Origin: Herbinix sp.
GTDB lineage: Bacteria > Bacillota > Clostridia > Lachnospirales > Lachnospiraceae
Direction: 5' to 3'
Assembly: GCA_029239235.1 (NCBI GenBank)
Contig: JAQZBD010000013.1
Span: forward strand, 1 to 59,715
DNA length: 59,715 bases
In this document: piece after piece, positions 10,790 to 55,032 of the stretch
Position numbering within the stretch: position 1 is the stretch's first letter
Layout of the letters: every line of letters starts with the position of its first letter
Translations under genes and position numbers: made by a program
The notes under the pieces: model-generated
Database searches by the model: none
Told to the model about the DNA's origin: nothing
Seen by the model: only the letters and a program-made list of their open reading frames with translations

Positions 10790-10892
10790 CTAAAACCCTG
10801 GCAGGATAGTGGAGGGTTTTAGTTTTTTATTTGCATACTTCTCTATCAACACATCTGTCTCCATAATAGATGGTGTGTTCTAGTTAGCATAT
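10790..10892 (-). repeat. dispersed repeat copy A with hairpin
   Basis: The repeat (10837-10892) ends in GATGGTGTGTTCTAGTTAGCATAT on the plus strand, split here as the near-consensus half. The other half is diverged. A hairpin CTAAAACCCT/AGGGTTTTAG (10790-10822) lies at its left. Minus-strand reading: EHTIY, then a frameshifted METDVLIEK-like tail. Confidence 0.7.
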
Positions 10893-10899
10893 TTTCTCA

Positions 10900-11346
10900 T
10901 CATCTTAGCTCGTTTCTTATTTGTTTTTTCCATTTATTAATATTCTGAATTGCATTTTTTTCTCCTCCTACATATATATCTTCAATTGTCATGGGCCAAA
11001 ATCTTAGTTCACGCTGTCTTTCCTTACTTGGAATAGGATTTGTTATTTTTCCTACTGATTTTACAATCTCTCGATTATTCTTAAGAATATATGGTGCATC
11101 CCAATCATTATCATAAGCATCAATAAATAACTTTACTAAATGTCTATATCCTTCTGCTGTGTAATTCGAAGGATGTTGTATCATATAACATGAAACAAGC
11201 CAAAAATGCAGCGCATATAGTTTCGGGTCATTATGCTCCCAAACAAGAGGAAAACCAAATAGTTCATAGCATGAAAATCCGTCTGTCTCCTTGGCTCCAC
11301 ATTCTATACATCTCCCAGATTTCATAACTGTGTTATTATCAACCAT
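10900..11346 (-). CDS. DUF5946 family protein
   Basis: 148 residues with an N-terminal CIECGAKETDGFSCYELF segment (paired Cys, possibly zinc-binding), then LYALHFWLVSCYMIQHPSNY and EGYRHLVKLFIDAY, features I associate with DUF5946. Function unknown. AAAGGAG lies 13 bp before the ATG, a long spacing. It forms a single-gene unit between repeat copies A and B, and its stop lies 8 bp from copy A. Confidence 0.75.
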   Translation of the reverse strand: MVDNNTVMKSGRCIECGAKETDGFSCYELFGFPLVWEHNDPKLYALHFWLVSCYMIQHPSNYTAEGYRHLVKLFIDAYDNDWDAPYILKNNREIVKSVGKITNPIPSKERQRELRFWPMTIEDIYVGGEKNAIQNINKWKKQIRNELR

Positions 11347-11454
11347 TTATCACTATAACTCCTTTATAAAAAAACTAATCTACTTATCAGTTTACCCTAT
11401 GACGTAACGTAAAAGTCAACTTAATCCCAGCAAATTGTTTAATCTAACAAAAAA

Positions 11455-11586
11455 GCATTGCTATAAATCCAGCAATGCTCTAATCTACTTTAGCCATAAT
11501 GAATTATAATAGATATTGAGATAATCCTACTCCCTAATCACCAAAGCTAGTGTCTCGATATGGATGGTGTGTTCTATTTAGCATAT
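11455..11586 (-). repeat. dispersed repeat copy B with terminator
   Basis: The repeat at 11528-11586 is near-consensus. On the minus strand it reads EHTIHIETLALVIRE followed by a stop. The adjacent hairpin GCATTGCT/AGCAATGC (11455-11478) is followed on the minus strand by a T6 run, a good terminator in that direction. Confidence 0.85.
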
Positions 11587-11648
11587 CATAAAGTACCTTC
11601 GAGAGTTGCTTCTGATATCATATCCAAATAGAATCTCGGACAATAAAC

Positions 11649-12452
11649 TTACCTCTTTGATAATCTATATTTAGCTAACGTTTTTGAACCCCATAGAAAT
11701 GTTACTATCATAGTAACTATGCCTAATATGATGCTTGTTATTGCAGGGTCGTAATGTGAGCCATAATTCGGGAATAAGAAGACACTAACATTTATCATCA
11801 TATGATATATTATTCCTAAAAAAACATTTTTTCTGCTATTATTATAAATCCATATCATAAGTATTCGATTAAATATAGAAGTGATTACTTGCCAGACTAT
11901 CCATATTGGGTCGTTGCCAGCCTGAATCAGGGGTATGACATGCCATATCCCCCAAATTGCACCAATAAATACCCCTGTTTTTAATGCACTCCATCTTTTA
12001 AGCATAGGTTCATATAGATATCCCGTCCAGCCTACCTCCTCAGCAATTGCAGCTATGAAAAACACTAGAAGGAATATCGGTATAGCAATAATCTGGATAT
12101 GGGGTATGGGCAGGGGCAGATTCAATAATCTCATTGCTGTGTAGGACAAAAGCAATACCAGAGGCATCATGAATACACATGGCAAATACCAAATCTTGTT
12201 TGATACCCCTTTGTAGTAGAAGGTTCTTCCCATTAACTCTCTAATGCCCCTAGCTCCATTTTCTTTATGAACAAGTATTATAGCTGCTATAATAGGACAA
12301 ATAGCCATAAGCGCACTTATAGGAAGATTTATTGGAAGCTGGTCAGCCAAACGTCCTGCTACGACACCTAATATCCAAAAGGGCAATGAAAGCACAATTA
12401 ATAATATATGAAACTTTAAAGGCGACTTTTTTTGTGATACTTCAATATTCAT
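11649..12452 (-). CDS. CPBP-family intramembrane glutamic endopeptidase
   Basis: 267 residues with about eight membrane segments. CPBP/CAAX-protease motifs are present: EEVGWTGYL (motif 1, tandem Glu), GIWHVIPL (motif 2, His), and a late HMMINVSVF (motif with His and Asn). Members cleave membrane substrates or act in bacteriocin self-immunity. The start at 12452 (MNIEVSQKK) follows GGGAG with an 8-bp gap, better than the upstream in-frame start at 12467. Single-gene unit between repeat copies B and C. Confidence 0.88.
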   Translation of the reverse strand: MNIEVSQKKSPLKFHILLIVLSLPFWILGVVAGRLADQLPINLPISALMAICPIIAAIILVHKENGARGIRELMGRTFYYKGVSNKIWYLPCVFMMPLVLLLSYTAMRLLNLPLPIPHIQIIAIPIFLLVFFIAAIAEEVGWTGYLYEPMLKRWSALKTGVFIGAIWGIWHVIPLIQAGNDPIWIVWQVITSIFNRILMIWIYNNSRKNVFLGIIYHMMINVSVFLFPNYGSHYDPAITSIILGIVTMIVTFLWGSKTLAKYRLSKR

Positions 12453-12522
12453 TTCGCAAACTCCCATTTACTCACGTCTTAGAAAATATACTTTATAAAG
12501 AGAAACTATTCAATAACATTAT

Positions 12523-12639
12523 AACTCCCCCTGATATATAAAATACAGGGGGAGTTACTTAATATCTTTTTTATTGCCAAACTGCTCTAACCACCCAAGC
12601 TACGATCTCACAATGGATGATGTGTTATAGTTTGCATAT
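12523..12639 (-). repeat. dispersed repeat copy C with hairpin
   Basis: The repeat at 12581-12639 reads on the minus strand HIIHCEIVAWVVRAV, without the usual stop. The adjacent hairpin AACTCCCCCTG/CAGGGGGAGTT spans 12523-12556. Confidence 0.75.
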
Positions 12640-12694
12640 GTTTAAGTGATGTCTAATAACTTGATAACTTCGGTGCCTAGCAACTATTCTTTTT

Positions 12695-13492
12695 TCACTT
12701 TACAACCTCAGGTACTAGTTTAATAGACAAACCGTCCCGTAAAGTTAGCTTAGAGCCTTCGGATAGATAAACATTCTTAATTTCATTTACATCTCCATCT
12801 TCGAGCCCAACCACTTCATTAACATAAGCATCACTTGAATGAAGATTACCCGACCCCGAAACTGCGACAATGTTGTAAGTACCAACTTCAAAATCTGTAC
12901 CGACTATGTAATTTCCGGTTGATATGTCTATTTCACCAGACATATCATATGTGCGTCCCGAAAAACCGCTATCAACCGATTTATAAACAATTTTAATTGT
13001 TAACGCATCCCTTATAATCAGGGAAACATCTTTCCTTAGCTTCAGCCCTTTAAAAGATGATACATATCCACGTTCAATACCGAACACTTCATTAATTCCG
13101 TGATCCGAGCTGTGAAGATTGCCGCTTCCTGAAATAGCAGTAACATTGCACGTACCTACAGGGATATCAATACCTGCGGTATAAAAGCCAGTAGTTAATG
13201 TATATGCATTTGCTGGATTGGACGACTCCGAATTCTTTTTCATAGCATTTTCAGTTTTGGCAGTTGCTGCAGAAGGTACTGTTTTAGCATCTTCGATATA
13301 AATTAGAGGTGAACCGCAATACTCACACTTATCAACAGAATTGCTGATTATTAAATTTTTAGCTCCGCAACTGGAACATTCAATTACTCTTGGTTCAGTA
13401 ACCGAGCTTCTTTCAGTATGATTTTGATATCCATCTATTTTCCGTTCATTTTTTCCCCTACCGAAAAAAGATCCGATTATTCCCTTTCCCAT
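12695..13492 (-). CDS. zinc-ribbon protein with duplicated beta-rich domain
   Basis: 265 residues. A zinc ribbon CSSCGAKN...CEYCGSPL (about 41-63) is followed by a low-complexity linker and two homologous domains of about 70 residues: TTGFYTAGIDIPVGTCNVTA and STGNYIVGTDFEVGTYNIVA, each continuing with SGSGNLHSS and ending in a LIIRDALTIKIV / LTLRDGLSIKLV strand. No signal peptide, so presumably cytoplasmic. The ATG at 13492 is 7 bp after GGGGGAAG. A fragment of another coding sequence ends just upstream (13495). Confidence 0.8.
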   Translation of the reverse strand: MGKGIIGSFFGRGKNERKIDGYQNHTERSSVTEPRVIECSSCGAKNLIISNSVDKCEYCGSPLIYIEDAKTVPSAATAKTENAMKKNSESSNPANAYTLTTGFYTAGIDIPVGTCNVTAISGSGNLHSSDHGINEVFGIERGYVSSFKGLKLRKDVSLIIRDALTIKIVYKSVDSGFSGRTYDMSGEIDISTGNYIVGTDFEVGTYNIVAVSGSGNLHSSDAYVNEVVGLEDGDVNEIKNVYLSEGSKLTLRDGLSIKLVPEVVK

Positions 13493-13494
13493 CT

Positions 13495-13605
13495 TCAAAC
13501 TTCCCCCTTCTTAAGCTCTTCAACTTCAAGCGTTGCTGCATCACACAATCCTCTTGCATTATCAGCAAGATGGCTAGTCCTAGCATATTTATGAATAGTT
13601 TATTC
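13495..13605 (-). pseudogene. C-terminal fragment of an unidentified protein, then non-coding DNA
   Basis: A minus-strand frame reads ARGLCDAATLEVEELKKGEV and stops at 13495, immediately before the zinc-ribbon gene start. Upstream it is closed by a stop after about 34 codons without a start codon. It looks like the tail of a lost upstream cistron. Beyond it, to 13830, I see no gene; 13718-13760 has weak similarity to the dispersed repeat. Confidence 0.45.
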
Positions 13606-13830
13606 TAAACCCTGCTTGACTAATATCTTATATTCCTCACCCATATTTTAACATACTTTTAATGCATTTGCTAAGATTGGGTTTTGGGTAAATGATATAG
13701 ATTTCTACTAGCCTACTTAACGCTCGAGATTAGCAATGTGTTCTTCTTTCTCGACAAGAGTTCTTTCCCTATATATAATTCCCCAGAAGTAATAACTGAC
13801 GTGCGTGGCTCTTAAGCTTTTATACGTTAT

Positions 13831-13867
13831 AAAAGATGACTCCTGTTCATTACAGAAATCATCTTTT
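13831..13867 (-). terminator. intrinsic terminator of the 13929-14399 gene
   Basis: AAAAGATGA (13831-13839) pairs with TCATCTTTT (13859-13867), with further pairing of CTGT and ACAG inside. It lies 62 bp after the stop of the minus-strand gene at 13929. Confidence 0.6.
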
Positions 13868-13928
13868 ATGTTCATAGCACTTTTTAAATTGTCCTTTCCA
13901 TAGATAACAGATTAAACATGCCTGTCAG

Positions 13929-14399
13929 TTATTTAATCAGGTTCTTATAATACTCGATGATTCCTGCCATAGCTGTATTCGATGTAGGCAAAACCTCGGT
14001 AGTATAGGAAACGTTGCTAAATACTTCAGGCTTTTTGAGACTTATTCTATATTTTACCGCTGTTTCAGGCTTATCGGCGGGATAGAAACCTACATTATAA
14101 ACAATCATAGGCAAATATCCATCTGTGATCACCATTACTGTGTATCCCATAAATTTCTTAGGGGTATTTGGTCTGCTTTCAAGCTGTACCAAGGCACGTC
14201 CCTCAGAGTCTGCCTTAAATACTTTTTCTTCCTCCATAATAATGATGTTGGCATTTTCTATTGCTGCATCATTGATTGCATCATAGATTTCAAATATCGC
14301 GGTCCCTTTTTCTGTATGCGTAAAGTTATATACGCTGATTGAAAGAACCAGAACCACTAATATTAATGTGACTATATATAGAATAGTCTTTTTTTTCAT
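13929..14399 (-). CDS. membrane-anchored protein with carboxypeptidase-regulatory-like domain
   Basis: 156 residues. One N-terminal membrane segment (ILYIVTLILVVLVLSISVY) is followed by an extracytoplasmic beta-sandwich-like part: AIFEIYDAINDAAIENANI, then VFKADSEGRALVQL, the pattern of CarboxypepD_reg domains. It ends in TSNTAMAGIIEYYKNLIK. A SpoIID/LytB-domain fragment lies just upstream on the same strand, so the pair may descend from a sporulation or cell-wall module. Function not established. Confidence 0.7.
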   Translation of the reverse strand: MKKKTILYIVTLILVVLVLSISVYNFTHTEKGTAIFEIYDAINDAAIENANIIIMEEEKVFKADSEGRALVQLESRPNTPKKFMGYTVMVITDGYLPMIVYNVGFYPADKPETAVKYRISLKKPEVFSNVSYTTEVLPTSNTAMAGIIEYYKNLIK

Positions 14400-14424
14400 A
14401 TTTAGTATTGTCCTTCCCTAATAT

Positions 14425-14640
14425 CTACATTGGTATAATAATTATGATTATTTCACTGGATGCAGCATCAACCGCTGCGTTTCCAATCTCTGTAGAAGAA
14501 ATCTGATTATATACCTGGAAATCTTGAGTGCTTCATACATCATAGCTTGTACCGGAATGACAGTCTTTTTTATAGTAATGATATACTCCATAACTTCTTG
14601 CTGCCACAGCTTGTGCTTTCATCGACAACCAGCACTATAT
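14425..14640 (-). pseudogene. SpoIID/LytB-domain gene fragment
   Basis: The minus strand reads KAQAVAARSYGVYHYYKK, CHSGTSYDV, an in-frame TGA, then STQDFQVYNQ and NAAVDAASSEII. This matches the SpoIID/LytB core, where KAQAVAAR and a YDVC-type motif are typical; the TGA falls at the usual Cys position. No start codon and no remaining N- or C-terminal part are present, so it is a decayed fragment. It abuts the end of the nitroreductase gene. Confidence 0.72.
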
Positions 14641-15390
14641 TTTTCCCAATACTGTATAAATATTGTAAGTAGCTATTTCTATATTTTCTTCATTAGAATT
14701 TTGCTCTATACCTAGTGTTCTATCAAACGCATAATTGCTGTGTTTCAAAGCAATTTCAAGAAAGCAAAGAAATATTCCCATATCAATGGAATTGTAGTAA
14801 GGTAGTTTATTCGCCGGCATGAAAGACCTGATTAAAGTGCTGCGATACACCTTAATACAATTATTGTCACTTACAACCTTCCACGGCTGTGTATTGCAAG
14901 CGCTAGGAGCATATCGAACCACATCTACTACATTCTGATTAAATTCACCATTCCATAGTGTTTTACTATCCTTGCGGTTGCATTTTAACAGGTCTTTCCG
15001 GAAGTGTTCTGGACGGCTCTTCCCAAAAGCCATCATAATAACATAATCAAGACCCTCATACTTCAACTCCGTTGTTTTAGCCAAAGCATACCAACACGCA
15101 CCTATATCTTGTGAGGCGAAAAATAAATCCATCTGTTCAAGCATATACCCGGCATTCAGAAGATAACAAGGCTTTCGTTCACTATACATAAGCAAGCAGT
15201 ATTCTCCACGCTTAGATGTAGTTTCAGTCCTCTTTACTATTCTAAATTTAACTCTGATATCATTATCTAACGGAACGAGATTTTCAATCTTGTTCTTTAT
15301 TGCCTTCATTTCTTTCTCAGAAACTAGCAATTCTTCATCAAATTTTCTAACTGATTTTCTCTTAAAAATCATTTCATATAGGTCTTCCAC
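14635..15390 (-). CDS. nitroreductase-family protein (TM1586-like)
   Basis: 251 residues with the nitroreductase start LYEMIFKRKSVRKFDEELL, a central CWYALAKT/MAFGKSRP region, and VRYAPSACNTQPWKVV, the conserved flavin-contact segment. It resembles the TM1586-type branch, which has two half-domains in one chain. Such proteins bind FMN and reduce nitro or quinone compounds. The start follows GGAGG. The 3' end touches a SpoIID fragment, which suggests a junction there. Confidence 0.85.
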   Translation of the reverse strand: MEDLYEMIFKRKSVRKFDEELLVSEKEMKAIKNKIENLVPLDNDIRVKFRIVKRTETTSKRGEYCLLMYSERKPCYLLNAGYMLEQMDLFFASQDIGACWYALAKTTELKYEGLDYVIMMAFGKSRPEHFRKDLLKCNRKDSKTLWNGEFNQNVVDVVRYAPSACNTQPWKVVSDNNCIKVYRSTLIRSFMPANKLPYYNSIDMGIFLCFLEIALKHSNYAFDRTLGIEQNSNEENIEIATYNIYTVLGKI

Positions 15391-15540: not shown

Positions 15541-15640
15541 ACTCTGCTGACTTTATCTCAGCAGAGTTTTTTAGTTTAATTCTACTATCTAATCGCCAAG
15601 GCTAATGCCTCACAATGGGTGGTGTTTCTAGTTAAAATAT
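15541..15640 (-). repeat. dispersed repeat copy D with terminator
   Basis: The repeat at 15582-15640 reads on the minus strand RNTTHCEALALAIR followed by a stop. The hairpin ACTCTGCTGA/TCAGCAGAGT (15541-15567) has T-rich tracts on both sides and resembles the hairpins beside copies E, F, K and L. Confidence 0.83.
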
Positions 15641-15690
15641 GGGAAAATGAACCAGCCACTATGCCGTTCTAATGCCGCGTCTCATCAAAT

Positions 15691-16143
15691 TTAAAGATCT
15701 TTTTTGATTCCACTAGTGATAGTAATATCATTAATTTGTTTTAAATCCGGTTTATTTACTATTTTGTACGTGTATTTATCTATCGTTAAATAGTTTTTAT
15801 CCACAAATTTTATGCTCACTGCCTTTTCGCTATTACTCACCATTAAATAATAGGTATCATACAATAATGGTTCAAATGTGTTAGGAGGAAAAAAAGTACG
15901 TCTCACTTTTACATTACTAAAAATATCCGATAAATCATCAATCGATGTTTTTTCTTCAATATCATAAGTTTTTATTAAATGGGCTGATGTGTAGATATTT
16001 ACACTAGTATTGCTTATAGTGGTTATCTCGATTTGTTTTGAAACTATATCTTTTAGTGAAACAGGAGTATAATACCACTTCATACCTACTAATAGAAATA
16101 TAATACAAGCAAAAATAGAGAAATAAATAATGTTTTTTTTCAT
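15691..16143 (-). CDS. membrane-anchored or secreted hypothetical protein
   Basis: 150 residues. The N-terminal segment IIYFSIFACIIFLLVGMKWY is a signal anchor; the rest is hydrophilic and beta-rich (VRRTFFPPNTFEPLLYDTYY). I do not recognise the family. GAGGAG lies upstream of the ATG at 16143. Its stop lies about 50 bp from repeat copy D, as for other units of the array. Confidence 0.7.
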   Translation of the reverse strand: MKKNIIYFSIFACIIFLLVGMKWYYTPVSLKDIVSKQIEITTISNTSVNIYTSAHLIKTYDIEEKTSIDDLSDIFSNVKVRRTFFPPNTFEPLLYDTYYLMVSNSEKAVSIKFVDKNYLTIDKYTYKIVNKPDLKQINDITITSGIKKDL

Positions 16144-16471
16144 AAATACTCTCCTCTAATCAGAAAACGTATTATTTTTGCATAATTGGACCATGGTATA
16201 ATTTAACATAATCATTTCTATATTATACCATTAATTCAGCTTGTTCAACTAGTTAGAATTTCTCAAATGCACGAATTAAATACCCCAGCGCATTATGTAC
16301 CTATCATTACCGGATTAACAGATAATAAGGAATTATATATGCGCTGGAGTCTAAAAACTAACTCTTAAAGGCTATTGATTGCACTATGTCATAATAGATA
16401 AGTTCTACGAGAGCAATTCTAATATATGTTCATAATGCTACAATATAAAAGATTTGATCTTTAGCAAAGAA
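16144..16471. other. intergenic region with an imperfect hairpin
   Basis: No gene is visible. CCAGCGCAT (16285-16293) and ATGCGCTGG (16339-16347) can pair around a 45-nt loop, which may be a remnant of a small element. The rest is A+T-rich. Confidence 0.4.
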
Positions 16472-16966
16472 TTATTTCCATTGTATCTTACCCCTTGGAA
16501 CTAAGTCTTGATATACGCCACTTATAGAGTCAGAAGTTATATAATAGGTATATGCATTCTGCATTGTTCTAGTTCTATCATAGAAGTATCTACTAGGTAC
16601 TTCTTGCGGACCTTTTTGACCTTGATATGAAGGTGGGAAGTAAGGATTATTTGGATATAGCACTGCATAATCTTCTAAATATGCATCATCGTTGATAAGA
16701 GAATCCAATTCTATTAAAAATGCTTCTTCTAAACCGTAGTAGCCTAGCTTTTCAAGTTTGAGATTTTTTATTTCTGTTTTAGCTTTCTCAACATTCTGCT
16801 TTTCTTTGTTGTTAAGCAATTTGTTAATCTCATCTGTATTTGTCTTGTCTAAACTGCTTTCTTCAATTACTTTATCAGATTTAGAAAAAGTAAACTTGTG
16901 AATATTATATTTAGTTGGGTCTATTATTTTTTGAGAATCAGTGTTATACTTGATGATTTTGACCCG
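16472..16966 (-). pseudogene. 5'-truncated hypothetical gene
   Basis: The frame is open from 16966 to a stop at 16472 (about 164 codons), but the first part has no ATG, GTG or usable start; the only internal candidate is a TTG at 16819 with no ribosome binding site. The C-terminal half has an odd Pro/Tyr-rich stretch, NPYFPPSYQGQKGPQEVPSR. Family unknown. It probably lost its 5' end at a breakpoint near 16935-16966, where a plus-strand gene is also broken. Confidence 0.6.
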
Positions 16967-17213
16967 CTATCTGCAAACACACCGATTGTTGTGCATGAAG
17001 CTAATGTATTCAATCTTGAGAAATAAAAATAAAGCGAGGGATTGCTATTCTTTAGTTGAAAAGTGCAAGCAAACTATAATTGATTATAGGCTGGAAAACT
17101 CTTTTAATTATAGATACTGTGTCATTAAGACTGATTATCATATAAATCAAAATGATCTAAAAAGCGCAAAAGCTTTATTAGATAAAATTATTGGTAGAAA
17201 GGAGATAGAGTAA
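16935..17213 (+). pseudogene. C-terminal fragment of an RRNPP/Rap-like TPR regulator
   Basis: About 90 codons, helical: CYSLVEKCKQTIIDYRLENS, then VIKTDYHINQNDLKSAKALL, consistent with the last TPR-like repeats of a peptide-binding quorum-sensing regulator. The N-terminal HTH and most TPRs are missing. Its stop overlaps the start of a small exported peptide gene (TAATG), which is the usual arrangement of such regulators with their signal-peptide gene. The assignment rests on this arrangement more than on sequence identity. Confidence 0.5.
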
Positions 17214-17371
17214 TGAAGAAAACAGCATTATTAATAATTGCAGGTTTTATTGTATTTAATACTTTTGCTTTCAGTTTAGCCTTTGAAGGACCAAATCATA
17301 GTATAATGCAATTCGTTGCAGAGGATGAAATATATCCTCCAGCAATAGCACCTCGCAACGGTTATATTTAG
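17213..17371 (+). CDS. small exported peptide, candidate RRNPP signal precursor
   Basis: A 52-residue ORF, with start codon overlapping the preceding stop and GGAG upstream. It has a clear signal peptide (MKKTALLIIAGFIVFNTFAF), a short acidic middle and a Pro-rich tail ending PPAIAPRNGYI. This matches the build of Phr/PapR/Qss-type pro-peptides, which are exported, trimmed and re-imported to bind a cognate TPR regulator. The cognate regulator next to it is truncated, so the peptide may be orphaned or act on a regulator elsewhere. Confidence 0.65.
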   Translation: MKKTALLIIAGFIVFNTFAFSLAFEGPNHSIMQFVAEDEIYPPAIAPRNGYI

Positions 17372-17411
17372 ATTTAGATTCATTTTAATATAAGTATCAG
17401 TAAATTAGCAA

Positions 17412-17439
17412 AAGCCTACCCTAAGTGAGAGGTAGGCTT
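17412..17439 (+). terminator. intrinsic terminator after the peptide gene
   Basis: AAGCCTACC (17412-17420) pairs with GGTAGGCTT (17431-17439), 40 bp after the peptide gene stop. The tail is only weakly T-rich. Confidence 0.55.
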
Positions 17440-17572
17440 CTAAAGTAAATATCATTGATAAATAAAACAAATAAGCACATCAATAACTAATTTATGATTC
17501 TAAAATTTCACAAGAAGTGAGACTTATATAGTTTAGTGTAACTAATATAAGCTATTTACAGTCTCTTTCCCA

Positions 17573-20422
<2,850 letters not shown>

Positions 20423-20557: not shown

Positions 20558-20664
20558 AAATCCTCTGATGAAGAATTTTTCATCAGAGGATTTTAACTAT
20601 TATTATGCTTTTTAATTTTCAAGGCTACTGCCTCACAATGGATGTGGTGTTATTGTTAGCATGT
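20558..20664 (-). repeat. dispersed repeat copy E with terminator
   Basis: The repeat at 20611-20664 reads on the minus strand HHIHCEAVALKIKK with no immediate stop. The hairpin AAATCCTCTGATG/CATCAGAGGATTT is at 20558-20593, similar to those at copies F, K and L. Confidence 0.83.
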
Positions 20665-20680
20665 ACAAATGCACTTATTC

Positions 20681-20996: not shown

Positions 20997-21197
20997 GTTT
21001 ATCACACCTTTCATACTAATTATACAATATGCCTTTAAACAGTCTACCAATCTAAAACAACATAGTATGTTACTTTGAGTTTGCATTACATGTAAATACG
21101 GGATGAGATATTATTGCCATAACCTCAATTGATTAATTAAACACCAGTTATATTGGTAATACTAACTTTGTACATAACCTAATTTGGGGTGAAAACA

Positions 21198-22872: not shown

Positions 22873-22884
22873 AAACAACACACT

Positions 22885-43793: not shown

Positions 43794-43960
43794 ATTAAGG
43801 AACAACAAAATAATAACTTCCCAGTTTTGAAGCGGCTATTTTCCGCCAATACTGCGTTATCCTCAGTTGCAATAGCCCCACTATTGCGCCCTCCGCTGCC
43901 TTGTCTTGACAAAAACTATCTCGCTTAAAAATCGGGTTTTATTATTTAGTTGTTCCTAAT
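43794..43960. mobile_element. MITE-like element in the vanR leader
   Basis: 167 bp, non-coding, with terminal inverted repeats: left ATTAAGGAACAACAAAATAA, right (complement) ATTAGGAACAACTAAATAA. The inside is more GC-rich, with GCAATAGTGGGGCTATTGC able to form a hairpin, unlike the flanking A+T-rich DNA. No transposase. It separates the vanR -10 (43968-43973) from vanR and lengthens the leader. Confidence 0.7.
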
Positions 43961-43967
43961 ACTCATT

Positions 43968-44038
43968 ATTATAGTACTTCAAAACAAAAATTTATATCAT
44001 AATAATTTTCTTAATAAAACCTTAAGGTTTTATTAAGA
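43968..44038 (-). promoter_or_regulatory. vanR promoter with VanR-like boxes / perfect palindrome
   Basis: On the minus strand a TATAAT (43973-43968) is preceded by TTAATAAAACC, TTAAGGTTTT, ATTAAGAAAATT at about 11-bp steps. The same segment forms a 28-bp perfect palindrome with arm CTTAATAAAACCTT (44011-44038). No good -35 is present, as expected for an activator-dependent promoter; this suggests autoregulation of vanRS. Confidence 0.62.
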
Positions 44039-44124
44039 TGGCTTTAATATACTTCCCATACTAATATAAAGGACTACATATGAAATGCAATCCTTTCATA
44101 AGGTAGTCGTTTATCCAGCTTTTT

Positions 44125-44907: not shown

Positions 44908-44990
44908 GAGAGATCAATCCTTTCTTGCTGGATTCAACGGTATATTGCCTGTCTACAGCAAACTGCATAAGTAGATATCATATCCAGGTA

Positions 44991-45024
44991 GGAGTGTCGC
45001 ATCATTCTACTTTTGCGACACTCC
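44991..45024. terminator. intercistronic hairpin after the solute-binding protein gene
   Basis: GGAGTGTCGCA (44991-45001) pairs with TGCGACACTCC (45014-45024). On the minus strand it is not followed by a T run, so it may act as an mRNA-stabilising or partial terminator structure that raises the solute-binding protein over DUF624. Confidence 0.6.
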
Positions 45025-45061
45025 CTTTTGTTTTTGTTATTTTATTATACCGCAGGCTTAC

Positions 45062-47891: not shown

Positions 47892-47900
47892 ACCAGCTCC

Positions 47901-49172
47901 TTAATCGACAACTATGACGGGAGAGCCGTCAGATAATTGCTTGTCACTGTCCGATATTACCTTATCCGATTTGTTTACCCCGCTCAGAACCGCAGTTTTT
48001 GTATTATCTGAATCACCTATGCTAACAGGTACTCTTTCTACATAAAATTCGTTTCCCAGAGGGCCTTCCCTCTCCTTAAGCACATATACGAAGAATCCTT
48101 TAGTGTCCTGGCCAACTGCAGAATTAGATACAAGGACATTATAGGAGCCTATGCTCTTTTTGATATCAGCAGTACCAATCTCTCCTCCGACTAATCCCTC
48201 TGAAGGAATGTCAATCAACACATTCTTTTTTACTCCGATCTGTTGCTGGTTATCGCTGATCTGATTCACTTTTCCTTGTATGGTTATATCATTTAAAGAA
48301 TTTATCGATATCTTGGCTTCATCACCCGGTTCCAAATATTCTGCAGCACTTATATTAACAGTGGCAACAAATTGGAAGCCTTTGCCTGTATCCGCAATTC
48401 TGTACAATGGTTGGGAAGCAGTCAATCTCATACCTTCTGAGTAATATAGCTGGGTAACTACTCCGTCACAGGGGGATGTTACTATGCTCATGTTCATTTC
48501 TTTAGTAAGCTCGGCTATCTCTCTCTCCGCCATACTAATATCGAGCTTTGTGCTTTCAATGTCCCTTTTGTTCGCATTTACTGCCTTATCCTTGTTGTTT
48601 TTTGCAATCTCATAGTCCAGTTTGGCATTTTCCAGGTCTGCTTCCGCGTCAGCCAAACTTATTGAAGTTATTGCACCGACTTCAAACAAAGCCTTGCTAC
48701 TGTCGCAATTTTTCTGGGTTTTATCCACATTCTGCCGTGCAACCTGGACAGCTTTATCCATGATCATCAGACTTTCCGGTGAGCCAGCCTCCATCATCTC
48801 TTCAAGCAGCAGCTTTTTCTGAGCATATTTATCCTGCTCATCCTCCAGTTGGCTTTCTATATCGCTTGTATCAAGAGTCATAAGGGTCTGCCCCTGCTTC
48901 ACGCTGTCGCCTACTTCAACTTCGACCCCAGTTACCTTCATAATGCTGCTTACATACAGCTCCTGGGTAATATTAGCTTCTACACTCCCTGTACCCGTAA
49001 CTTCCTTGATCAATGCCCCGTTTGACGGAGTTTCATAACTTACCTTAGGCAGTGTAAAGTTATTAATAGTTCTTGAAAAAAAAGTCAAAATAAACATTAT
49101 TACAAAAAATATATTTGTTGCTCTTCCTGTCAGCTTTTTCCTCTTGATATTTACATCATCTAATACGCTCAT
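47901..49172 (-). CDS. HlyD/MacA-type membrane fusion protein
   Basis: 423 residues. One N-terminal membrane segment (IFFVIMFILTFFSRTI), a split lipoyl domain (VEVGDSVKQGQTLMTLDTSD ... IVTSPCDGVVTQLYYSEGMR), a long coiled coil between them (about 100-200), then the beta-barrel and membrane-proximal domains. Such adaptors assemble with MacB-type permeases, which supports reading the next gene as its partner. It ends 10 bp before it. Confidence 0.9.
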   Translation of the reverse strand: MSVLDDVNIKRKKLTGRATNIFFVIMFILTFFSRTINNFTLPKVSYETPSNGALIKEVTGTGSVEANITQELYVSSIMKVTGVEVEVGDSVKQGQTLMTLDTSDIESQLEDEQDKYAQKKLLLEEMMEAGSPESLMIMDKAVQVARQNVDKTQKNCDSSKALFEVGAITSISLADAEADLENAKLDYEIAKNNKDKAVNANKRDIESTKLDISMAEREIAELTKEMNMSIVTSPCDGVVTQLYYSEGMRLTASQPLYRIADTGKGFQFVATVNISAAEYLEPGDEAKISINSLNDITIQGKVNQISDNQQQIGVKKNVLIDIPSEGLVGGEIGTADIKKSIGSYNVLVSNSAVGQDTKGFFVYVLKEREGPLGNEFYVERVPVSIGDSDNTKTAVLSGVNKSDKVISDSDKQLSDGSPVIVVD

Positions 49173-49230
49173 ACTATGTGCCTACCTCCAATCCAATCTT
49201 CCATAATCTATGTTTCCAGTGATTATTAAC

Positions 49231-50124
49231 TCAACCTTTAAGCCCTGAAAGCTGAATTCCTTGAACCAGGTAGTTCTCGCCATATAGGAAGATCAGTAGC
49301 ATCGGCAGCATATATATGGTTGATGCGGCAAAAGCTATCCCCATTTCACCACTATTTATGCTGGACAAGTATGTCGACAGCGGATGCATATTTATATCCT
49401 GAAGGAATATCAGTGGCTGCTCCACCATATTCCAATTGTCTATGAATACCAGGATTGCAAGTGCTGCCAGCCCTGTTTTCGACATAGGCAGAATAATGCT
49501 GAAAAATATTCTGAGCTGGCTGGCTCCATCAACCTTTGCAGACTCTACGTATGCATCCGGTATATACATCATGAACTGTCTCATAAGAAATACACCAAAT
49601 GTACCAAAAATTCCAGGCAGTATGATGGACCAATAGCTCCCTACAATCCCCAGCCCACTGGCCATGATATAGTTTGGAACCAGCGTGACCTGGAAGGGCA
49701 TCATCATGATGATGACATATGTAAAAAACAACTTATCACGGAAAATAAACTCCAGCTTCGCAAATGCATATGCAGCCATGGATGAGACCAGTATCTGCCC
49801 CAGTATTATCGGAACAACAATTATCAGCGAGTTCCAAAACTTAATCAGAAATTGTGTTCTTTTTATCAGAGCCGTGTAGTATTGTGTCAAAGTCACCATA
49901 TCCGGAATCAACTTGACATTAGCATATTTCCCGGATAAGACACTTTCCTGCTCACCGCTGCTTGAGGTTACCATACTGTAACTGTTTTCTATCTCCTGCT
50001 CACGCATGAAAGAATTGATAACAGTCAGTATAAGAGGGAATAGAAACACGACAGCCATGGCAAGCAGAACAACTGACAGTGCTGCCTTTGTAAGTTTTTT
50101 CTTTATATGCTTAGTAGCCTGCAT
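49231..50124 (-). CDS. carbohydrate ABC permease (MalG type)
   Basis: 297 residues, six membrane segments, with the EAA loop AYVESAKVDGASQLRIFFSI facing the ATPase. The N-terminal FLFPLILTVINSFMREQEIE and the C-terminal YLVQGIQLSGLKG are typical CUT1 features. Works with the next gene and the solute-binding protein. AGGAGG upstream. No cognate ATPase in the window; CUT1 systems often share an MsmX-like ATPase. Confidence 0.93.
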   Translation of the reverse strand: MQATKHIKKKLTKAALSVVLLAMAVVFLFPLILTVINSFMREQEIENSYSMVTSSSGEQESVLSGKYANVKLIPDMVTLTQYYTALIKRTQFLIKFWNSLIIVVPIILGQILVSSMAAYAFAKLEFIFRDKLFFTYVIIMMMPFQVTLVPNYIMASGLGIVGSYWSIILPGIFGTFGVFLMRQFMMYIPDAYVESAKVDGASQLRIFFSIILPMSKTGLAALAILVFIDNWNMVEQPLIFLQDINMHPLSTYLSSINSGEMGIAFAASTIYMLPMLLIFLYGENYLVQGIQLSGLKG

Positions 50125-50131
50125 AACTTTA

Positions 50132-51013
50132 TCAACCTCCTATTGTACTGTTGATTCTTCTTTGAATCCTGAATAAAAACAGTACAAGTATGTAAATGAC
50201 AACAGCCATGATAAATGCAGCTGATGTTAACATCTGGTAATCCAAGGATGCAAATTTGTTGTTCATATAATGTTGCAGCATATAAATGCTGTCATGAGGA
50301 TATGCCCCGGAAATCAGATATACCTCCCTGAACACCTTGAAGGAATTGATTATAGACATTACGAATACGAAAAATGTAGTAGGTGTCAGATAAACCAGTG
50401 TGATATTTGTAAACTTGTGCCAATTGCTCGCTCCATCGATGTCGGCAGCTTCGTAATATTCCGGCGGTATATTTTGAAGGCCTGCGAGAAACAGTACCAT
50501 ATTATACCCGGTGTTCTTCCACATATAGACTATTACGACCACAATCCTGGCAAGATCAGTCTTCATCCAGTCTACCGGTAATAATCCAAGGGATGAAATA
50601 ACAGCATTGAGAGAGCCGTTAATATCAAACAATATCTGCCATACCAGAACAACAGATGCGACCGGAACCACCAGGGGTATGATAAAACCCATACGTATAA
50701 TATTCCTGCCGTAAATCCTCCTGTTAAGCAGCAGAGCAAACTCAAGAGAGAACAGAATATTGAGAGGAACTGCAATTGCTGTAAAAACCATGGTATTATA
50801 TCCGGCCTTTAAAAAAACAGTATTCCTCAAGAGATCGATATAGTTTGCCAGCCCAACGAAATTGCCACCCACCGGACTGTCTACCAATGAATAATATAAC
50901 CCGCCTACAAAGGGTACAAAGAAAAAGATCAAAAACCCGATAAGACTTGGTGCAAGAAAGAATAGCGCTGTTTTGTTATTATATTTTTTTCCTGTCTTTA
51001 ATAATGCTGACAT
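50132..51013 (-). CDS. carbohydrate ABC permease (MalF type)
   Basis: 293 residues, six membrane segments, with the EAA loop EYYEAADIDGASNWHKFTNI. First gene of the operon; the start at 51013 (MSALLKTG) lies 7 bp after GGAGG; the longer frame to 51040 has no advantage. VanR-like boxes lie about 190-220 bp upstream, with a hairpin between. Confidence 0.93.
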   Translation of the reverse strand: MSALLKTGKKYNNKTALFFLAPSLIGFLIFFFVPFVGGLYYSLVDSPVGGNFVGLANYIDLLRNTVFLKAGYNTMVFTAIAVPLNILFSLEFALLLNRRIYGRNIIRMGFIIPLVVPVASVVLVWQILFDINGSLNAVISSLGLLPVDWMKTDLARIVVVIVYMWKNTGYNMVLFLAGLQNIPPEYYEAADIDGASNWHKFTNITLVYLTPTTFFVFVMSIINSFKVFREVYLISGAYPHDSIYMLQHYMNNKFASLDYQMLTSAAFIMAVVIYILVLFLFRIQRRINSTIGG

Positions 51014-51109
51014 CCTCCATCCTCCTGCGGTATAATTCACTTCTAAGTCATATGTCTTACTTTAATCAAACATATGAAGCTTTCTAAGCATTTACATGAT
51101 CTATTTTCT

Positions 51110-51701: not shown

Positions 51702-53939
51702 TTACAAGTATTTCGCAGTAATAGACTCCTTGCAGTTTCTCAAGTTACCAGGTGTTCCTTCAAATAAAATCTGTCCGCCTCTGCTGCCGCCTTCAACACC
51801 TACATCGATAACCCAGTCAGCATTACGAATTACATCAAGGTTGTGTTCTATGACAACAACTGTATTTCCCTTATCAACAAGACGGTCTATAATGGTCAAA
51901 ATACTGGTGATATCAGACATATGCAAACCAGTTGTAGGCTCATCCATGATATAAATATTACCCTTTTTACTTAATTCCTTGGCAAGTTTTAAGCGTTGAC
52001 ATTCTCCACCGGAAAGGGTGTCTAAAGGCTGTCCTAGCGTCATATAATGCAGACCCACATCCGCGATATGCTTAAGCTTATTGATGATTTCTTTTTGCGT
52101 AAAGAATTCAACAGCTTCTGCGATTGTCATTTCTAGTACTTCAACAATGGATTTGCCATTATATTTATACTGCAAAACCTTATGCTTAAACCGTTTGCCA
52201 CCACATTCCTCACAGATGGTTTCAACTGAGTCCATAAAGGAAAGATCTGTTTCTATATAACCTCGCCCTTTACAAGCCTCACATGCACCTTCTGAATTAT
52301 AACTGAACAATCCGGCGCTTACCTTGTTTTCATCAGCAAATAACTTGCGTATTTCATCCATTATTCCAGTAAAGGTCGCTGGATTCGAACGTAGATTTGC
52401 GCTGACTGCTGACTGGTCGATAATGATGGCATCTTTATATTCCTTCGCAAAGACACAGTTAACAAGTGTAGACTTGCCGGAACCTGCCACTCCTGTAACA
52501 ACAGTGAATATCCCTTTGGGTATTCTCAAACTGACATCTTTCAAATTGTGCAAGCTACTCTTTTTTGTTTCATAGAAGTCATTGCTTGTCCTTGGCTTAC
52601 TCTTAATCGGCAGACTCCTGACCATATATTCACCTGTAAGAGTCTTGGCTTTCAGAAGGTCGCTATAGCTGCCTTCAAACATAATCCTTCCACCCTTGGC
52701 ACCTGCCTTTGGACCAACATCAACAATATGATCTGCTGTCTTTATAACGTCTGGGTCATGCTCAACTACAATCACTGTATTTCCTTTATCTCTTAATTTG
52801 ACTAATAATTCATTCAATCTATGGACATCTCTTGGATGCAAGCCAATACTTGGTTCATCAAAAATATATATCACATTCATCAGGCTGCTTGTAAGATGCT
52901 TAACCATTTTAACACGTTGTGACTCACCACCAGATAAAGTGGATGTTTCTCTGTCCAAGCTTACATAATCTAGCCCTATATGAATCAAATCATTTAACCG
53001 TTCGGACAAATTATCAATTATAGGTTTTACTTTTTTATCCTCAATCTTTTGAACCAGTTCTAGAAGTGAATCTACCTGCATTGCAGTTAAATCAGCGATT
53101 GTATACCCCATTATCCTTGATGATAATACCAATTCATTATATCGTTTTCCACAGCAATCAGAGCATTGTGCTTCCGTTACAAAAGGCATAATCTTCTTTT
53201 TGGATGCTTCTGATTTCTCACCTTCTGTTTTTATGTTTTGCCTAATAAATCTCTCGACTAATCCCTCATAGGTAGTATTCATGCCCTCAACAATTGCGGA
53301 TTTTATTTTTTCTGGTTTGCAAAAAACCAGCTTATCATATTCCTCTTTTGTATAATCCTTAACCTTTTTATCACAATCAAAAAAGCCTGTTGATGCATAC
53401 ATTTTCCATTGCCAAGTTCCTACAGCAAAACCCGGAAGTAAAATTGCACCTTCGTTTAATGATTTTTCTTTATTCAAAGCCTTGTCAATATCCAATGTAA
53501 CGATCCTGCCAATGCCTTCACACGTCTTGCACATACCATTTGGATCATTAAATGAAAAATAGTTGGATGGCCCGATATGTGGCTGCCCCATACGTGAAAA
53601 TAATAATCGTATTAATGGATTAATATCTGTAATTGTACCCAATGTTGAACGGGAGTTTCCACCAATTCTTTTTTGATCAACAATAATCGCCAGTGATAAG
53701 TTTTTGATCTCATCAACATCAGGATGACTATACTTCGGCATAAACCCTTGAATAAATTTGCTGAAGGTTTCATTTAACTGCCTTCCAGCTTCCTGAGCAA
53801 TTGTTTCAAAAACAATGGATGATTTGCCGGAACCCGATACCCCTGTAAAAATTGTGATCTGTCCCTTTGGTATTTTTAAATTAAAATTTTTTAGGTTGTT
53901 AGCCCTTGCGCCTAAAATTTCAATAAATTCGTATCCCAT
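51702..53939 (-). CDS. UvrA-like ABC ATPase (class II, resistance type)
   Basis: 745 residues. Two UvrA-type ATPase halves: Walker A GVSGSGKSSIVFETIAQEAG and GVAGSGKSTLVNCVFAKEY, signature LSGGESQRVKMVKHL and LSGGECQRLKLAKEL, Walker B YIFDEPSIGLHPRD and YIMDEPTTGLHMSD; zinc-binding pairs CKTCEGIG, CSDCCGKR, CEACKGRG, CEECGGKR. It is about 200 residues shorter than repair UvrA and lacks most of the UvrB-interaction region, like the UvrA2/DrrC proteins linked to resistance to DNA-binding drugs. Divergent from a double-MerR regulator. Confidence 0.9.
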   Translation of the reverse strand: MGYEFIEILGARANNLKNFNLKIPKGQITIFTGVSGSGKSSIVFETIAQEAGRQLNETFSKFIQGFMPKYSHPDVDEIKNLSLAIIVDQKRIGGNSRSTLGTITDINPLIRLLFSRMGQPHIGPSNYFSFNDPNGMCKTCEGIGRIVTLDIDKALNKEKSLNEGAILLPGFAVGTWQWKMYASTGFFDCDKKVKDYTKEEYDKLVFCKPEKIKSAIVEGMNTTYEGLVERFIRQNIKTEGEKSEASKKKIMPFVTEAQCSDCCGKRYNELVLSSRIMGYTIADLTAMQVDSLLELVQKIEDKKVKPIIDNLSERLNDLIHIGLDYVSLDRETSTLSGGESQRVKMVKHLTSSLMNVIYIFDEPSIGLHPRDVHRLNELLVKLRDKGNTVIVVEHDPDVIKTADHIVDVGPKAGAKGGRIMFEGSYSDLLKAKTLTGEYMVRSLPIKSKPRTSNDFYETKKSSLHNLKDVSLRIPKGIFTVVTGVAGSGKSTLVNCVFAKEYKDAIIIDQSAVSANLRSNPATFTGIMDEIRKLFADENKVSAGLFSYNSEGACEACKGRGYIETDLSFMDSVETICEECGGKRFKHKVLQYKYNGKSIVEVLEMTIAEAVEFFTQKEIINKLKHIADVGLHYMTLGQPLDTLSGGECQRLKLAKELSKKGNIYIMDEPTTGLHMSDITSILTIIDRLVDKGNTVVVIEHNLDVIRNADWVIDVGVEGGSRGGQILFEGTPGNLRNCKESITAKYL

Positions 53940-54037
53940 ATTTTCCTCCTGTTAAATACACTTAAATATAATATTACCATACTGCCATAGGATTTTTTTA
54001 GATTTCTGACCTCAATGGCAATCTCTGACTTTACCAT
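53912..54037 (-). pseudogene. ABC-ATPase N-terminal remnant or upstream ORF of the UvrA-like gene
   Basis: A 41-codon ORF with an excellent ribosome binding site (GGAGGTG, 7 bp before ATG at 54037). It starts MVKSEIAIEVRNLKKSYGS, a classic ABC ATPase N-terminus, and then departs. It runs into the UvrA-like gene start in another frame. Probably a deletion remnant of a transporter gene, though its translation would pass over the uvrA-like start and could affect it. Confidence 0.6.
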
Positions 54038-54133
54038 ATTTTGCACCTCCATTTTCGATTATAATTAAATTTTATAACATTAATGCAAGAGCTAAAGTTT
54101 ATGTATTTATACATCAGTAAATCAAAGATTGTA

Positions 54134-54169
54134 TTGACCAAACATTATAGTATAAGTATAATGTTTGGT
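54134..54169 (+). promoter_or_regulatory. promoter and operator of the double-MerR gene
   Basis: TTGACC (54134-54139), 17-bp spacer, TATAAT (54157-54162). A perfect inverted repeat with 13-bp arms, ACCAAACATTATA (54137-54149) and its complement (54157-54169), covers both elements, so binding there should control this promoter and possibly the divergent uvrA-like gene. Confidence 0.78.
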
Positions 54170-54190
54170 ATTAGCTATGGAGGTGTTATT

Positions 54191-54907
54191 TTGGCCATAA
54201 GACCTATTGATATAGCCCGAAAGCTTAATATTAGTACAAGCTCATTGAGACATTACGAAGAGTGGGGCATGATTCCCAAAGTCGAACGTTCTGCAAGCGG
54301 GTATAGAATTTACACGAATGAACATGTTGCTTATTTTGAATGTATCAGAGCTATGGCAGATGGTTTTGGAATTTGGATTGTTGGCGAAGTGTTGAAAAAA
54401 GTTATGGCAAAAGATGTCGATTCCGCATTTTGGCTCACCAATCAGGCTCAATCAAGCTTGCACAACGAAAAGATCATATCTGAAAAAACGATGCAGAATA
54501 TAAAGGAAGCAAGTGCTCCCCTCCTTAGTCAAAATGACGAGAGAGAATATTTAACCATAAATGAAATTAGCAAAGAAACAGGGATTCCAATTACAACAAT
54601 CAGACATTGGGAAAAAGTCGGACTTATTACAACCCCAAGAAATAAAGAAAACAAATACCGCCTATTTTATAAAAATCACATTCGTCAAATTCTTGTAATT
54701 CATGCTCTTAAAACATCAATGTATTCTTATACCTACTCTCTTGATGGTATTAAAAAAATAATACAAGAACTTGATTTCAATGATACTGAGAAACTTAGCA
54801 AAATTGCAAACGATTTTCAGAAACATTTAAATCAGATAAATCATCATCAAGTTCGGGGTGTACATCAGTTATATACTTTATGCAAGAAATTAAAGCTAGT
54901 AGATTAA
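54191..54907 (+). CDS. transcriptional regulator with two MerR-type HTH domains
   Basis: 238 residues from a TTG at 54191, which follows GGAGG; the ATG at 54083 would add 36 poorly conserved residues and cover the promoter. First HTH: IDIARKLNISTSSLRHYEEW...GYRIY; second at about 120-185: LTINEISKETGIPITTIRHWEKVGL...YRLFY. Same two-HTH layout as the protein at 10002-10736. Likely controls the divergent UvrA-like gene and itself; the middle helical part may bind a drug. Confidence 0.85.
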   Translation: MAIRPIDIARKLNISTSSLRHYEEWGMIPKVERSASGYRIYTNEHVAYFECIRAMADGFGIWIVGEVLKKVMAKDVDSAFWLTNQAQSSLHNEKIISEKTMQNIKEASAPLLSQNDEREYLTINEISKETGIPITTIRHWEKVGLITTPRNKENKYRLFYKNHIRQILVIHALKTSMYSYTYSLDGIKKIIQELDFNDTEKLSKIANDFQKHLNQINHHQVRGVHQLYTLCKKLKLVD

Positions 54908-54937
54908 TGGTGTTAGGTAAAAGCTAAATTAAACTAT

Positions 54938-55032
54938 AAAATCCTCTGCTGAATATTTTCAACAGAGGATTTATTGATCTCTCCTACTCCCTAATCACCA
55001 ACACTACGGCCTCACAATGTGGTGTGTGTCGA
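54938..55032 (-). repeat. dispersed repeat copy L with terminator
   Basis: The repeat at 54983-55032 reads on the minus strand FRHTPHCEAVVLVIRE followed by a stop, the copy that looks most like a protein C-terminus. The hairpin AAATCCTCTGCTG/CAACAGAGGATTT (one mismatch) is at 54938-54973. It lies 45 bp after the NRPS stop. Confidence 0.87.

Follow-up and report, generated by a model that had tools for sequence, protein, structure and literature searches.

The 59,715-nucleotide (nt) stretch analysed here, hereafter the window, is the whole of contig C34 of the Herbinix sp. genome GCA_029239235.1 (own genome, G000). It carries a long array of diverged repeats, in each of which a conserved arm and core of about 26 bases are followed by a variable copy of the 3′ end of the methyltransferase gene rlmD (its last codons, a stop codon and often a terminator), and the intervals between the repeats are filled with accessory genes. 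At least 12 repeats in a single orientation had been recognised in a preliminary description of this DNA. We built a sequence-only model (R1, 69 positions) from these 12 copies, which accordingly match it by construction, and searched the 4.97 Mb of the own genome with it (150 of 1452 first-look candidates were scored). The search returned 12 copies, all on C34 and all on the minus strand (E 7.4e-17 to 8.2e-8), confirming the earlier count, and no thirteenth copy was found at E ≤ 1. Independently of the model, CAATGGATGGTGTGTTCT with up to 3 mismatches gave 7 matches versus 0.04 expected, and CCTAATCACCAAGGCTACGG gave 4 versus 0.00 expected. The copies, with their R1 scores, are as follows.

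10831..10895, minus strand: copy A, 44.7 bits (E 3.8e-11); arm and core with 1 mismatch in 26 bases, then a decayed rlmD tail
11524..11587, minus strand: copy B, 60.7 bits; intact tail EHTIHIETLALVIRE and stop, then a hairpin at 11481-11452
12584..12641, minus strand: copy C, 52.4 bits; prolonged tail HIIHCEIVAWVVRAVWQ
15580..15641, minus strand: copy D, 53.5 bits; one-base deletion in the arm, then a hairpin at 15570-15538
20602..20665, minus strand: copy E, 53.8 bits; then a hairpin at 20593-20558
22813..22878, minus strand: copy F, 45.9 bits; insertion in the arm, intact tail EHTIHSGVVALVIRE and stop, hairpin at 22801-22769
24057..24125, minus strand: copy G, the weakest, 34.1 bits
31089..31151, minus strand: copy H, 44.9 bits; tail HTIHGESIILITNNGSKGK
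33584..33643, minus strand: copy I, 49.5 bits; 6 mismatches in arm and core
35567..35623, minus strand: copy J, 38.8 bits
51579..51643, minus strand: copy K, 63.0 bits; intact tail EHAIHCEAVALVVRE, stop and hairpin (by eye)
54981..55030, minus strand: copy L, 40.4 bits; intact tail FRHTPHCEAVVLVIRE and stop, lacking the conserved left arm (model positions 18-67 only)

Closer inspection changed some details of the preliminary description. It had placed 11 of the 12 copies near the stop of a minus-strand gene; the actual number is ten, which lie 5-62 bp past the stop of an open reading frame (ORF) of at least 60 amino acids (aa), the exceptions being G and I. The statement that most copies encode a peptide was too strong, since tail and stop are intact in only four of them (B, F, K and L); the remaining eight tails are still recognisable but decayed, shifted or prolonged. 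Hairpins had been reported behind most copies, and this holds for B, D, E and F, or four of the seven copies (A-G) in the scanned region 10500-24500, while those behind C, J, K and L were seen by eye only. The window repeats are more decayed than most copies elsewhere, so the array looks old.

The repeat is local and rare among the relatives of the window. In 40 relatives R1 gave one further match at E ≤ 0.01 (genome G008), which was taken as chance: it falls inside an ORF that we take from its translation to be gyrB-like, and was rejected as a true repeat. Across 295 genomes of the order the own genome alone matched at E ≤ 1e-4 under stricter filters. A pattern scan of genome contigs yielded nine stretches, totalling 71 kb, in which R1 made 24 matches at E ≤ 0.05, and all five genomes behind these stretches were positive at E ≤ 1e-4, with 44 matches between them. 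These are a record labelled Calditrichales (G319), an Anaerosolibacter metagenome-assembled genome (MAG; G320), A. carboniphilus (G321), a Clostridia MAG (G322) and GWB2_37_7 (G323). One contig of G320 holds 11 copies, against the 12 of the window. Scanning 22 loci with TATGCTAACWRSAACACACCAYSCAY produced 61 matches at up to 5 mismatches versus none in the reversed sequence; because these loci had been picked by patterns and by R1, both of which include an HCEAVA-type tail, the kinds of tail among them cannot be taken as an unbiased sample.

A second model (R2, 48 positions) was built from 62 copies, after two of 64 scan matches (6 mismatches, no tail) had been dropped. With R2, 5 of 16 genomes in the family of G321 were positive at E ≤ 1e-4 (G324 only weakly), as were 5 of 391 in the class of the window at 1e-6, own genome included, and 6 of 393 in the order of genome G332. 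Three of the class positives share contig coordinates with G319, G322 and G323, which leaves G443 as the new one. A spread across phyla, for which the Calditrichales label of G319 had been the argument, was dropped because the same contig coordinates occur in the window's own class (G487); the identity of the two records is inferred from these coordinates. Among viral contigs a first pattern gave 0 matches and a second gave six stretches, which were taken as chance coding matches because none of them matches R1 or the recombinase and rlmD queries. A 64-base consensus had no match in plasmids and phages. By eye, motifs recur 20-60 bp before the arm of many repeats (GGTGCCAGGCACC-like, ACGTTTAGACGGTTATT and GCACTTTCGCACATATT; for example in loci L063, L071 and L072 and in the window); these are perhaps accessory sites or marks of unit subtypes.

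The variable half of the repeat is the end of a gene. Read in the frame CAC-ACC, the tail gives the C-terminus of RlmD (HTIHCEAVALVVRE, HTMHVETVVRIERK, HSIHIECVVLMSRK, HTIHVEAVCLLVRK and others). A stop in this frame follows after 13-18 codons in 49 of the 61 copies, and after exactly 14 residues in 35; the other two frames have such a stop in 3 and 3 of 61, and shuffled tails in 11.4 on average (maximum 18). The preliminary description had proposed an RlmD-type gene end as the source, and an intact gene of this kind exists: the rlmD of G320 ends in DMFPHTTHCEAVALVVRE and a stop, followed by a CTCTGTTGAA/TTCAGCAGAG hairpin, a CTCTG..CAGAG terminator like those behind the repeats. Using TIGR00479 we located rlmD in G319-G323 (truncated at a contig end in G322, matching in two frames in G323). 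The tails of the gene differ between G320 and the other genomes compared, ending in DMFPHTVHCEAVALLVRE (G319), DMFPHTTHCEAVVKIERV (G321), DMFPHTVHVETTTLIKRAESRMG (G323), DMFPHTSHVECVIMMTYCGSKGK (G332) and DMFPQTVHVECVCCLQRV (G443), and in all six the left arm is absent, the genes reading GATATGTT(T/C)CCxCA instead. The rlmD genes of G320 and G321 are homologous at the DNA level up to about 20 bases beyond the start of the core, where the similarity breaks off. The earlier proposal that each incoming element restores the target end needs one refinement: every unit brings its own, different rlmD end.

These tails bear on the idea of a mobile 3′ untranslated region or terminator module that is inserted behind genes and has nothing to do with integration. 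The ten window copies sitting shortly behind a stop codon and the hairpins behind many copies are what such a module would produce. The rlmD frame, kept in 49 of 61 tails though no gene uses it there, is not, and neither is the restriction of the copies of G332 to the region downstream of rlmD; we regard a terminator module as very improbable.

The location of the arrays also points to rlmD. Five genomes (G319, G320, G321, G332 and G443) have an array on the same contig as the nearest full-length rlmD, and in every one of them the repeats are downstream of the gene and on its strand. The strongest case is G332, a single contig of 5.79 Mb in which only four copies were found at E ≤ 1e-4, all on the strand of rlmD and 11-72 kb downstream of it. 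With one contig occupied in the own genome and only the rlmD-downstream region in G332, the repeats are not scattered over the chromosome. Copy K of the window is 94% identical over 67 bp to a G443 repeat 2 kb downstream of rlmD. Repeats with up to 5 mismatches keep to one strand within each of 17 contig blocks, blocks without rlmD having been oriented by their repeats. In G324 an rlmD fragment lies between two weak repeats. No rlmD was found in the 40 kb examined of G333, nor any rlmD match in the 17-20 kb examined of the repeat-bearing contigs of G786 and G800.

The repeats of the window enclose the following cargo, in which 7 of the 11 inter-repeat intervals measure at most 3.0 kb.

10900..11346, minus strand: A-B, DUF5946 protein (Pfam)
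11649..12467, minus strand: B-C, Rce1-like CAAX protease (Pfam)
12695..15390, minus strand: C-D, two proteins with no Pfam match and a TM1586-type nitroreductase (14635-15390)
15691..20392, minus strand: D-E, two small proteins with no Pfam match and the rifamycin-phosphotransferase-like gene rph (17573-20392; RIF_Ptrans_rph 1456 bits, cut-off 999)
21189..22694, plus strand: E-F, phytoene-desaturase-like gene (TIGR02734 361 bits, cut-off 238)
22885..24009, minus strand: F-G, radical-SAM protein
24700..30935, plus strand: G-H, PadR regulator and ABC transporter genes
31192..33328, minus strand: H-I, two proteins with no Pfam match
33867..35523, plus strand: I-J, ABC-F-type gene in two overlapping frames, below the curated ABC-F cut-off
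35665..51040, minus strand: J-K, VanZ, Mur ligase, D-Ala-D-Ala dipeptidase, D-Ala-D-Lac ligase of VanI type (VanI model 716.9 bits, cut-off 700), 2-hydroxyacid dehydrogenase, D-Ala-D-Ala carboxypeptidase, VanS/VanR-like pair, DUF624 protein and transporter component (annotation covers the interval except ORFs 45062-50124)
51702-53939, minus strand: K-L (cargo 51702..54907), UvrA-like gene (TIGR00630 737 bits, cut-off 729.8)
54083-54907, plus strand: K-L, MerR regulator

Segments of the window recur in other arrays, mostly at 80-94% DNA identity and down to 66% for weaker ones: rph, the radical-SAM gene, the PadR/ABC unit, the ABC-F-type gene, VanZ and the VanS/VanR-like part of the van cluster, the UvrA-like gene and a Tet-like ribosomal protection gene. 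In particular, rph is common to G319, G320, G321, G323 and G443, the ABC-F-type gene to G320, G321 and G322, and the UvrA-like gene to G319 (82%), and parts of the van cargo recur on contig C6 of G322 at 87-93% DNA identity. The PadR/ABC unit is also found between repeats in G321 (86-89% DNA identity). The radical-SAM gene occurs in the arrays of G319, G320, G321, G333 and G443 and on a repeat-bearing contig of G416, at 88-90% aa and 71-82% four-fold-site identity to the window copy; over six genomes its aa identity is 88-95%. The tail side of copy G aligns with the start of this unit in G443 and, less closely, in G321. In total, 52 gene clusters occur in two or more genomes, a count that takes in rlmD and its neighbours. 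At four-fold sites rlmD itself is only 18-34% identical between genera, which is saturated, and 47% identical between G320 and G321. The shared units are far above this (69-90% for radical SAM, 65-79% for rph), which we read as horizontal transfer.

Single units also differ between related arrays, as the preliminary description led one to expect. The phytoene-desaturase-like unit sits between the radical-SAM and rph units in the window only, in a comparison that includes G319, G320 and G321, where these two genes share one contig; at 55% aa identity none of the other arrays compared has a counterpart. Radical SAM followed by rph is an order common to the window, G319, G320 and G321, and G443 would fit if its two contigs join. 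This partly conserved order and the sharing of multi-unit blocks would also result if homologous recombination or segmental duplication had dispersed a piece of the rlmD end together with its terminator, in which case the repeats would be no more than recombination hot spots. Such a process does not account for the many kinds of rlmD tail joined to a constant left arm foreign to rlmD, for the different cargo between the repeats, or for the orientation on one strand downstream of rlmD, and we consider it improbable.

What enzyme would act at these sites? The preliminary description had seen no integrase, and six-frame searches of the contig agree: there is no match to tyrosine or serine recombinases, including three serine recombinases used as queries. 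Among the 39 proteins covered by the Pfam scan (of 69 ORFs of at least 90 aa in the window), the only transposase is of IS200 type (Y1_Tnp, 2979-3452), outside the repeat-bearing stretch. An array of small units whose sites share one orientation and mostly lie behind gene ends recalls a true integron, in which an IntI tyrosine recombinase acts on attC sites. The findings refute this, leaving it next to no probability: no conserved foldback was found in the 12 window repeats (RNAalifold, 6 pairs, -0.32 kcal/mol), the tyrosine-recombinase profile PF00589 has no match inside any array of the six genomes searched, and the variable half of the site codes for the rlmD end.

Serine recombinases did turn up near copies elsewhere, one of the checks proposed in the preliminary description, although none is intact beside a repeat. 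The profile PF00239, searched in a set of genomes that did not include G332 and G443, matches inside or near arrays on C11 of G320 and C78 of G323. The damaged G320 gene is a 308-aa ORF lacking much of the Recombinase domain, about 1.3 kb behind a repeat with the tail HVESIVLLQNEKC, with an insertion-sequence-like ORF between them. In G332 the repeat that matches it (HVESIALLQKGKS) is followed within 0.2 kb (about 0.15) by the C-terminal piece of this same gene, 93% identical, and a second recombinase fragment is present. On C78 of G323, serine-recombinase pieces lie 4.5 kb from a repeat (read on the same contig of G416). Two small PF00239 matches on the repeat-bearing C7 of G321 are far off, at 70 kb. 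Finally, G323 encodes an intact enzyme of 465 aa, in which Resolvase, Recombinase and zinc-ribbon domains are all present; its gene lies 9 kb downstream of an rlmD whose tail is of another kind, and no R1 match was found beside it. The stretch behind this rlmD (locus L102, 7600-18106) holds Fic, kinase, TraB and cation-efflux genes together with the intact large serine recombinase, and is perhaps a different type of element using the same target.

Taken together, these results make it highly probable that the array arose as cassettes without a recombinase were integrated site-specifically, one after another, at the 3′ end of rlmD, and the earlier suggestion of repeated integration at an RlmD-type gene 3′ end was essentially right. 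In this model, the site on a circular unit would have three parts: the conserved left arm, ATATGCTAACWRSAACACACCA; a short core, which surrounds the second histidine codon of the motif H-T-x-H-x-E in rlmD; and the unit's own version of the final rlmD codons, with the stop and often a terminator. Recombination with the identical core in rlmD would put the tail of the unit onto rlmD and leave the former rlmD tail behind the left arm of the unit; since one tail replaces the other, the gene would stay whole. The next unit would enter at the same place and push the earlier one outward. With serial entry at a single place, the array would grow from rlmD and every internal junction would read arm-core-tail in the orientation of rlmD. 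The window units, having no recombinase, would have to be moved in trans. The acting enzyme is probably a large serine recombinase, the likeliest candidate by analogy being of the kind that targets rumA (= rlmD) elsewhere, and several units could also move together as blocks. For the movement in trans, taken by itself, we hold the chances to be about even.

An alternative account accepts serial integration and disputes only the movement in trans: each unit once had its own serine recombinase acting at rlmD and later lost it, so that the array is an accretion of decayed conventional elements, or cis-mobilizable elements (CIMEs), and nothing is mobilised in trans now. The recombinase remnants behind a repeat in G320 and G332, the pieces in G323, the intact gene downstream of rlmD in the latter and the decay of the window repeats are consistent with it, and decay with accretion is a route to CIMEs described in the sections consulted of PMC5704250. 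It fits poorly with the seven window intervals of at most 3.0 kb, in which there is no trace of a lost integrase. The radical-SAM gene, at 88-95% aa identity in six genomes while rlmD is saturated, moreover implies movement as a small unit or within blocks. We judge this alternative unlikely, while giving it more weight than the other rivals.

Several observations weigh against serial, trans-acting integration at rlmD. As regards the target, the own-genome rlmD lies on contig C2 with another tail and without any repeat within C2, and in G322 and G323 rlmD is not on a repeat-bearing contig. G320 and G321 each have a second RlmD-family gene, that of G320 being on the repeat-bearing C10, 250 kb from the repeats; an ABC-F gene divided between the ends of C10 and C11 leads us to regard C10 as continuing C11. 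One R1 match in G319 lies on another contig (C9, 30.1 bits). As regards the enzyme, no Resolvase-family match exists anywhere in G000 or inside the arrays of G319 and G321, and inside arrays only damaged copies occur (G320, G332 and G323); the intact serine recombinases on array contigs are far off, 92 and 283 kb away on C8 of G319 and 170 kb away on C10 of G320. A dyad-symmetric serine-recombinase site was rejected, the best centre scoring 0.474 against a column-shuffle mean of 0.433 (sd 0.043, maximum 0.614). As regards the units, the partly conserved order between arrays means that block transfer explains part of the sharing, the PadR/ABC operon is inverted in G332, and some unit ends are ragged: on its arm side the radical-SAM unit loses homology right at its stop codon and so short of the arm. 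Arms farther from rlmD tend to be more decayed, but this is no more than a trend (S = 35 of 143 untied pairs; p = 0.04 contig by contig, 0.006 when G320 is joined and 0.001 when the window is dropped as well), in a test that left out contigs with a single copy, the two-copy contigs G322.C41 and G322.C157, and the four worst copies of the window. Within the window the trend runs the opposite way (S = -8 of 24, or -14 of 56 once all 12 copies are included).

Some of these points concern the provenance of the contig, and C34 may be mis-binned. The signs of this are the absence of repeats from the other contigs, the lack of a Resolvase-family match in the genome and the different tail of its rlmD. 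By tetranucleotide signature, the left 10.5 kb correlates at 0.47 with nine own-genome pieces (0.63-0.71 among themselves), the left part being shorter than those pieces; the repeat-bearing part correlates at 0.62 and the whole window at 0.64.

Integron-like capture of single genes is textbook knowledge for Gram-negative bacteria, and we know of no described equivalent in Clostridia; nor did we find a description of such arrays in the open-licence literature, judged mostly by titles and the first lines of abstracts. Like integrons, the arrays are ordered series of small accessory-gene units with sites in one orientation and no recombinase of their own. Unlike integrons, they have no attC-like fold and no IntI gene was found in them, the site is the end of a protein-coding gene that each unit must complete, several units are multi-gene and some genes face the other way.

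Streptococcal integrative and conjugative (ICEs) and integrative and mobilizable elements (IMEs) insert in rumA (= rlmD) by a single serine integrase that exchanges the 3′ part of the gene, as described in the relevant sections of PMC4701971 and PMC5704250. According to these sections, they share with our arrays the target gene, the exchange of its 3′ part and very short direct repeats (2-21 bp), and differ in having their own integrase and the other attachment (att) site inside the integrase gene; the arrays stack many integrase-less units, in which the left arm is constant and the rlmD tail is particular to each unit. An att site in the coding end, with that end exchanged, is seen from G320 and the differing tails, evidence that does not extend to the window's own host. 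No large serine recombinase is encoded in the elements, there being none in the window and only damaged copies elsewhere.

The staphylococcal cassette chromosome (SCC, SCCmec) and Enterococcus cassette chromosome (ECC) likewise use a methyltransferase gene 3′ end, directly repeated att sites and variable cargo, and the portion of PMC6222049 consulted reports multiple attR sites in 16 of 32 ECCs. In that account the target is rlmH, ccrAB is carried and ECCs span 21-78 kb, whereas the arrays have their site in rlmD, mostly small units and no ccr-like pair that we found. The arrays thus have the layout of integrons and use their site as SCC and rumA ICEs do, but in each case one defining feature was tested and not found. 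They do fit tandem accretion of integrase-less elements (CIMEs), at an unusual scale. As in the tandems treated in the consulted part of PMC5704250, integrase-less units with att sites are stacked at one target gene. Recombinase remnants, which may reflect an origin from full ICEs or IMEs, are present in three genomes. The tandems described there are with ICEs or IMEs, while the arrays here reach 12 copies and their units cross families.

If our interpretation is right, the end of one housekeeping gene is a gate for collecting rifamycin-phosphotransferase-like, vancomycin-type, ABC-F-like, UvrA-like and radical-SAM genes, and this cargo is exchanged between families of Clostridia. A functional target-gene end carried by each cassette would be an unusual solution to repeated insertion into one gene; it would resemble the gene capture of Gram-negative integrons with a different kind of site, and several of the packages resemble antibiotic-resistance genes. 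A bolder proposal, to which we would give slightly less than an even chance, is that the system is a Gram-positive counterpart of the integron, with rlmD as capture site and true recombinase-free cassettes inserted by a trans-acting large serine recombinase. Each cassette would then pay for its entry with a working rlmD end, the array would record the acquired genes in the order of their arrival, and the gene pool, rich in resistance-like genes, would be common to several families of Clostridia. The site is directly searchable, as the 26-base arm and core followed by an rlmD end, so the content and order of arrays can be compared between strains and the missing recombinase can be found.

Some of the cargo shows features of its own. 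A part of rph (about 18398-18868) is 82% identical to a stretch labelled 'transposase family protein' on two Trichormus plasmids, possibly a mis-annotation. The alignments of the ABC-F-type gene to G321 and G322 jump by about 83 bases at window position 35082, and with its two frames the gene looks broken in the window. In the J-K interval, 142-bp direct repeats, 85% identical (36357-36498 and 40731-40872), flank the block of Mur ligase and van ligase genes, and in the G322 relative only about 160 bp separate VanZ from the VanS/VanR-like part; the block may therefore be a separate insertion.

1..10790, no strand assigned: left flank, with segments 1-651, 694-1191, 3759-6318 and 9963-10832 recurring near other arrays

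R1 finds no repeat above threshold in this flank, which is possibly more of the array. Within it, an ORF at 3663-6320 fuses a Tet-like ribosomal-protection GTPase with a YacP-like NYN domain, and a match to the Rfam family STnc490 (59.8 bits; 3458-3572, minus strand) adjoins the IS200-type transposase gene, with similar DNA in G321.

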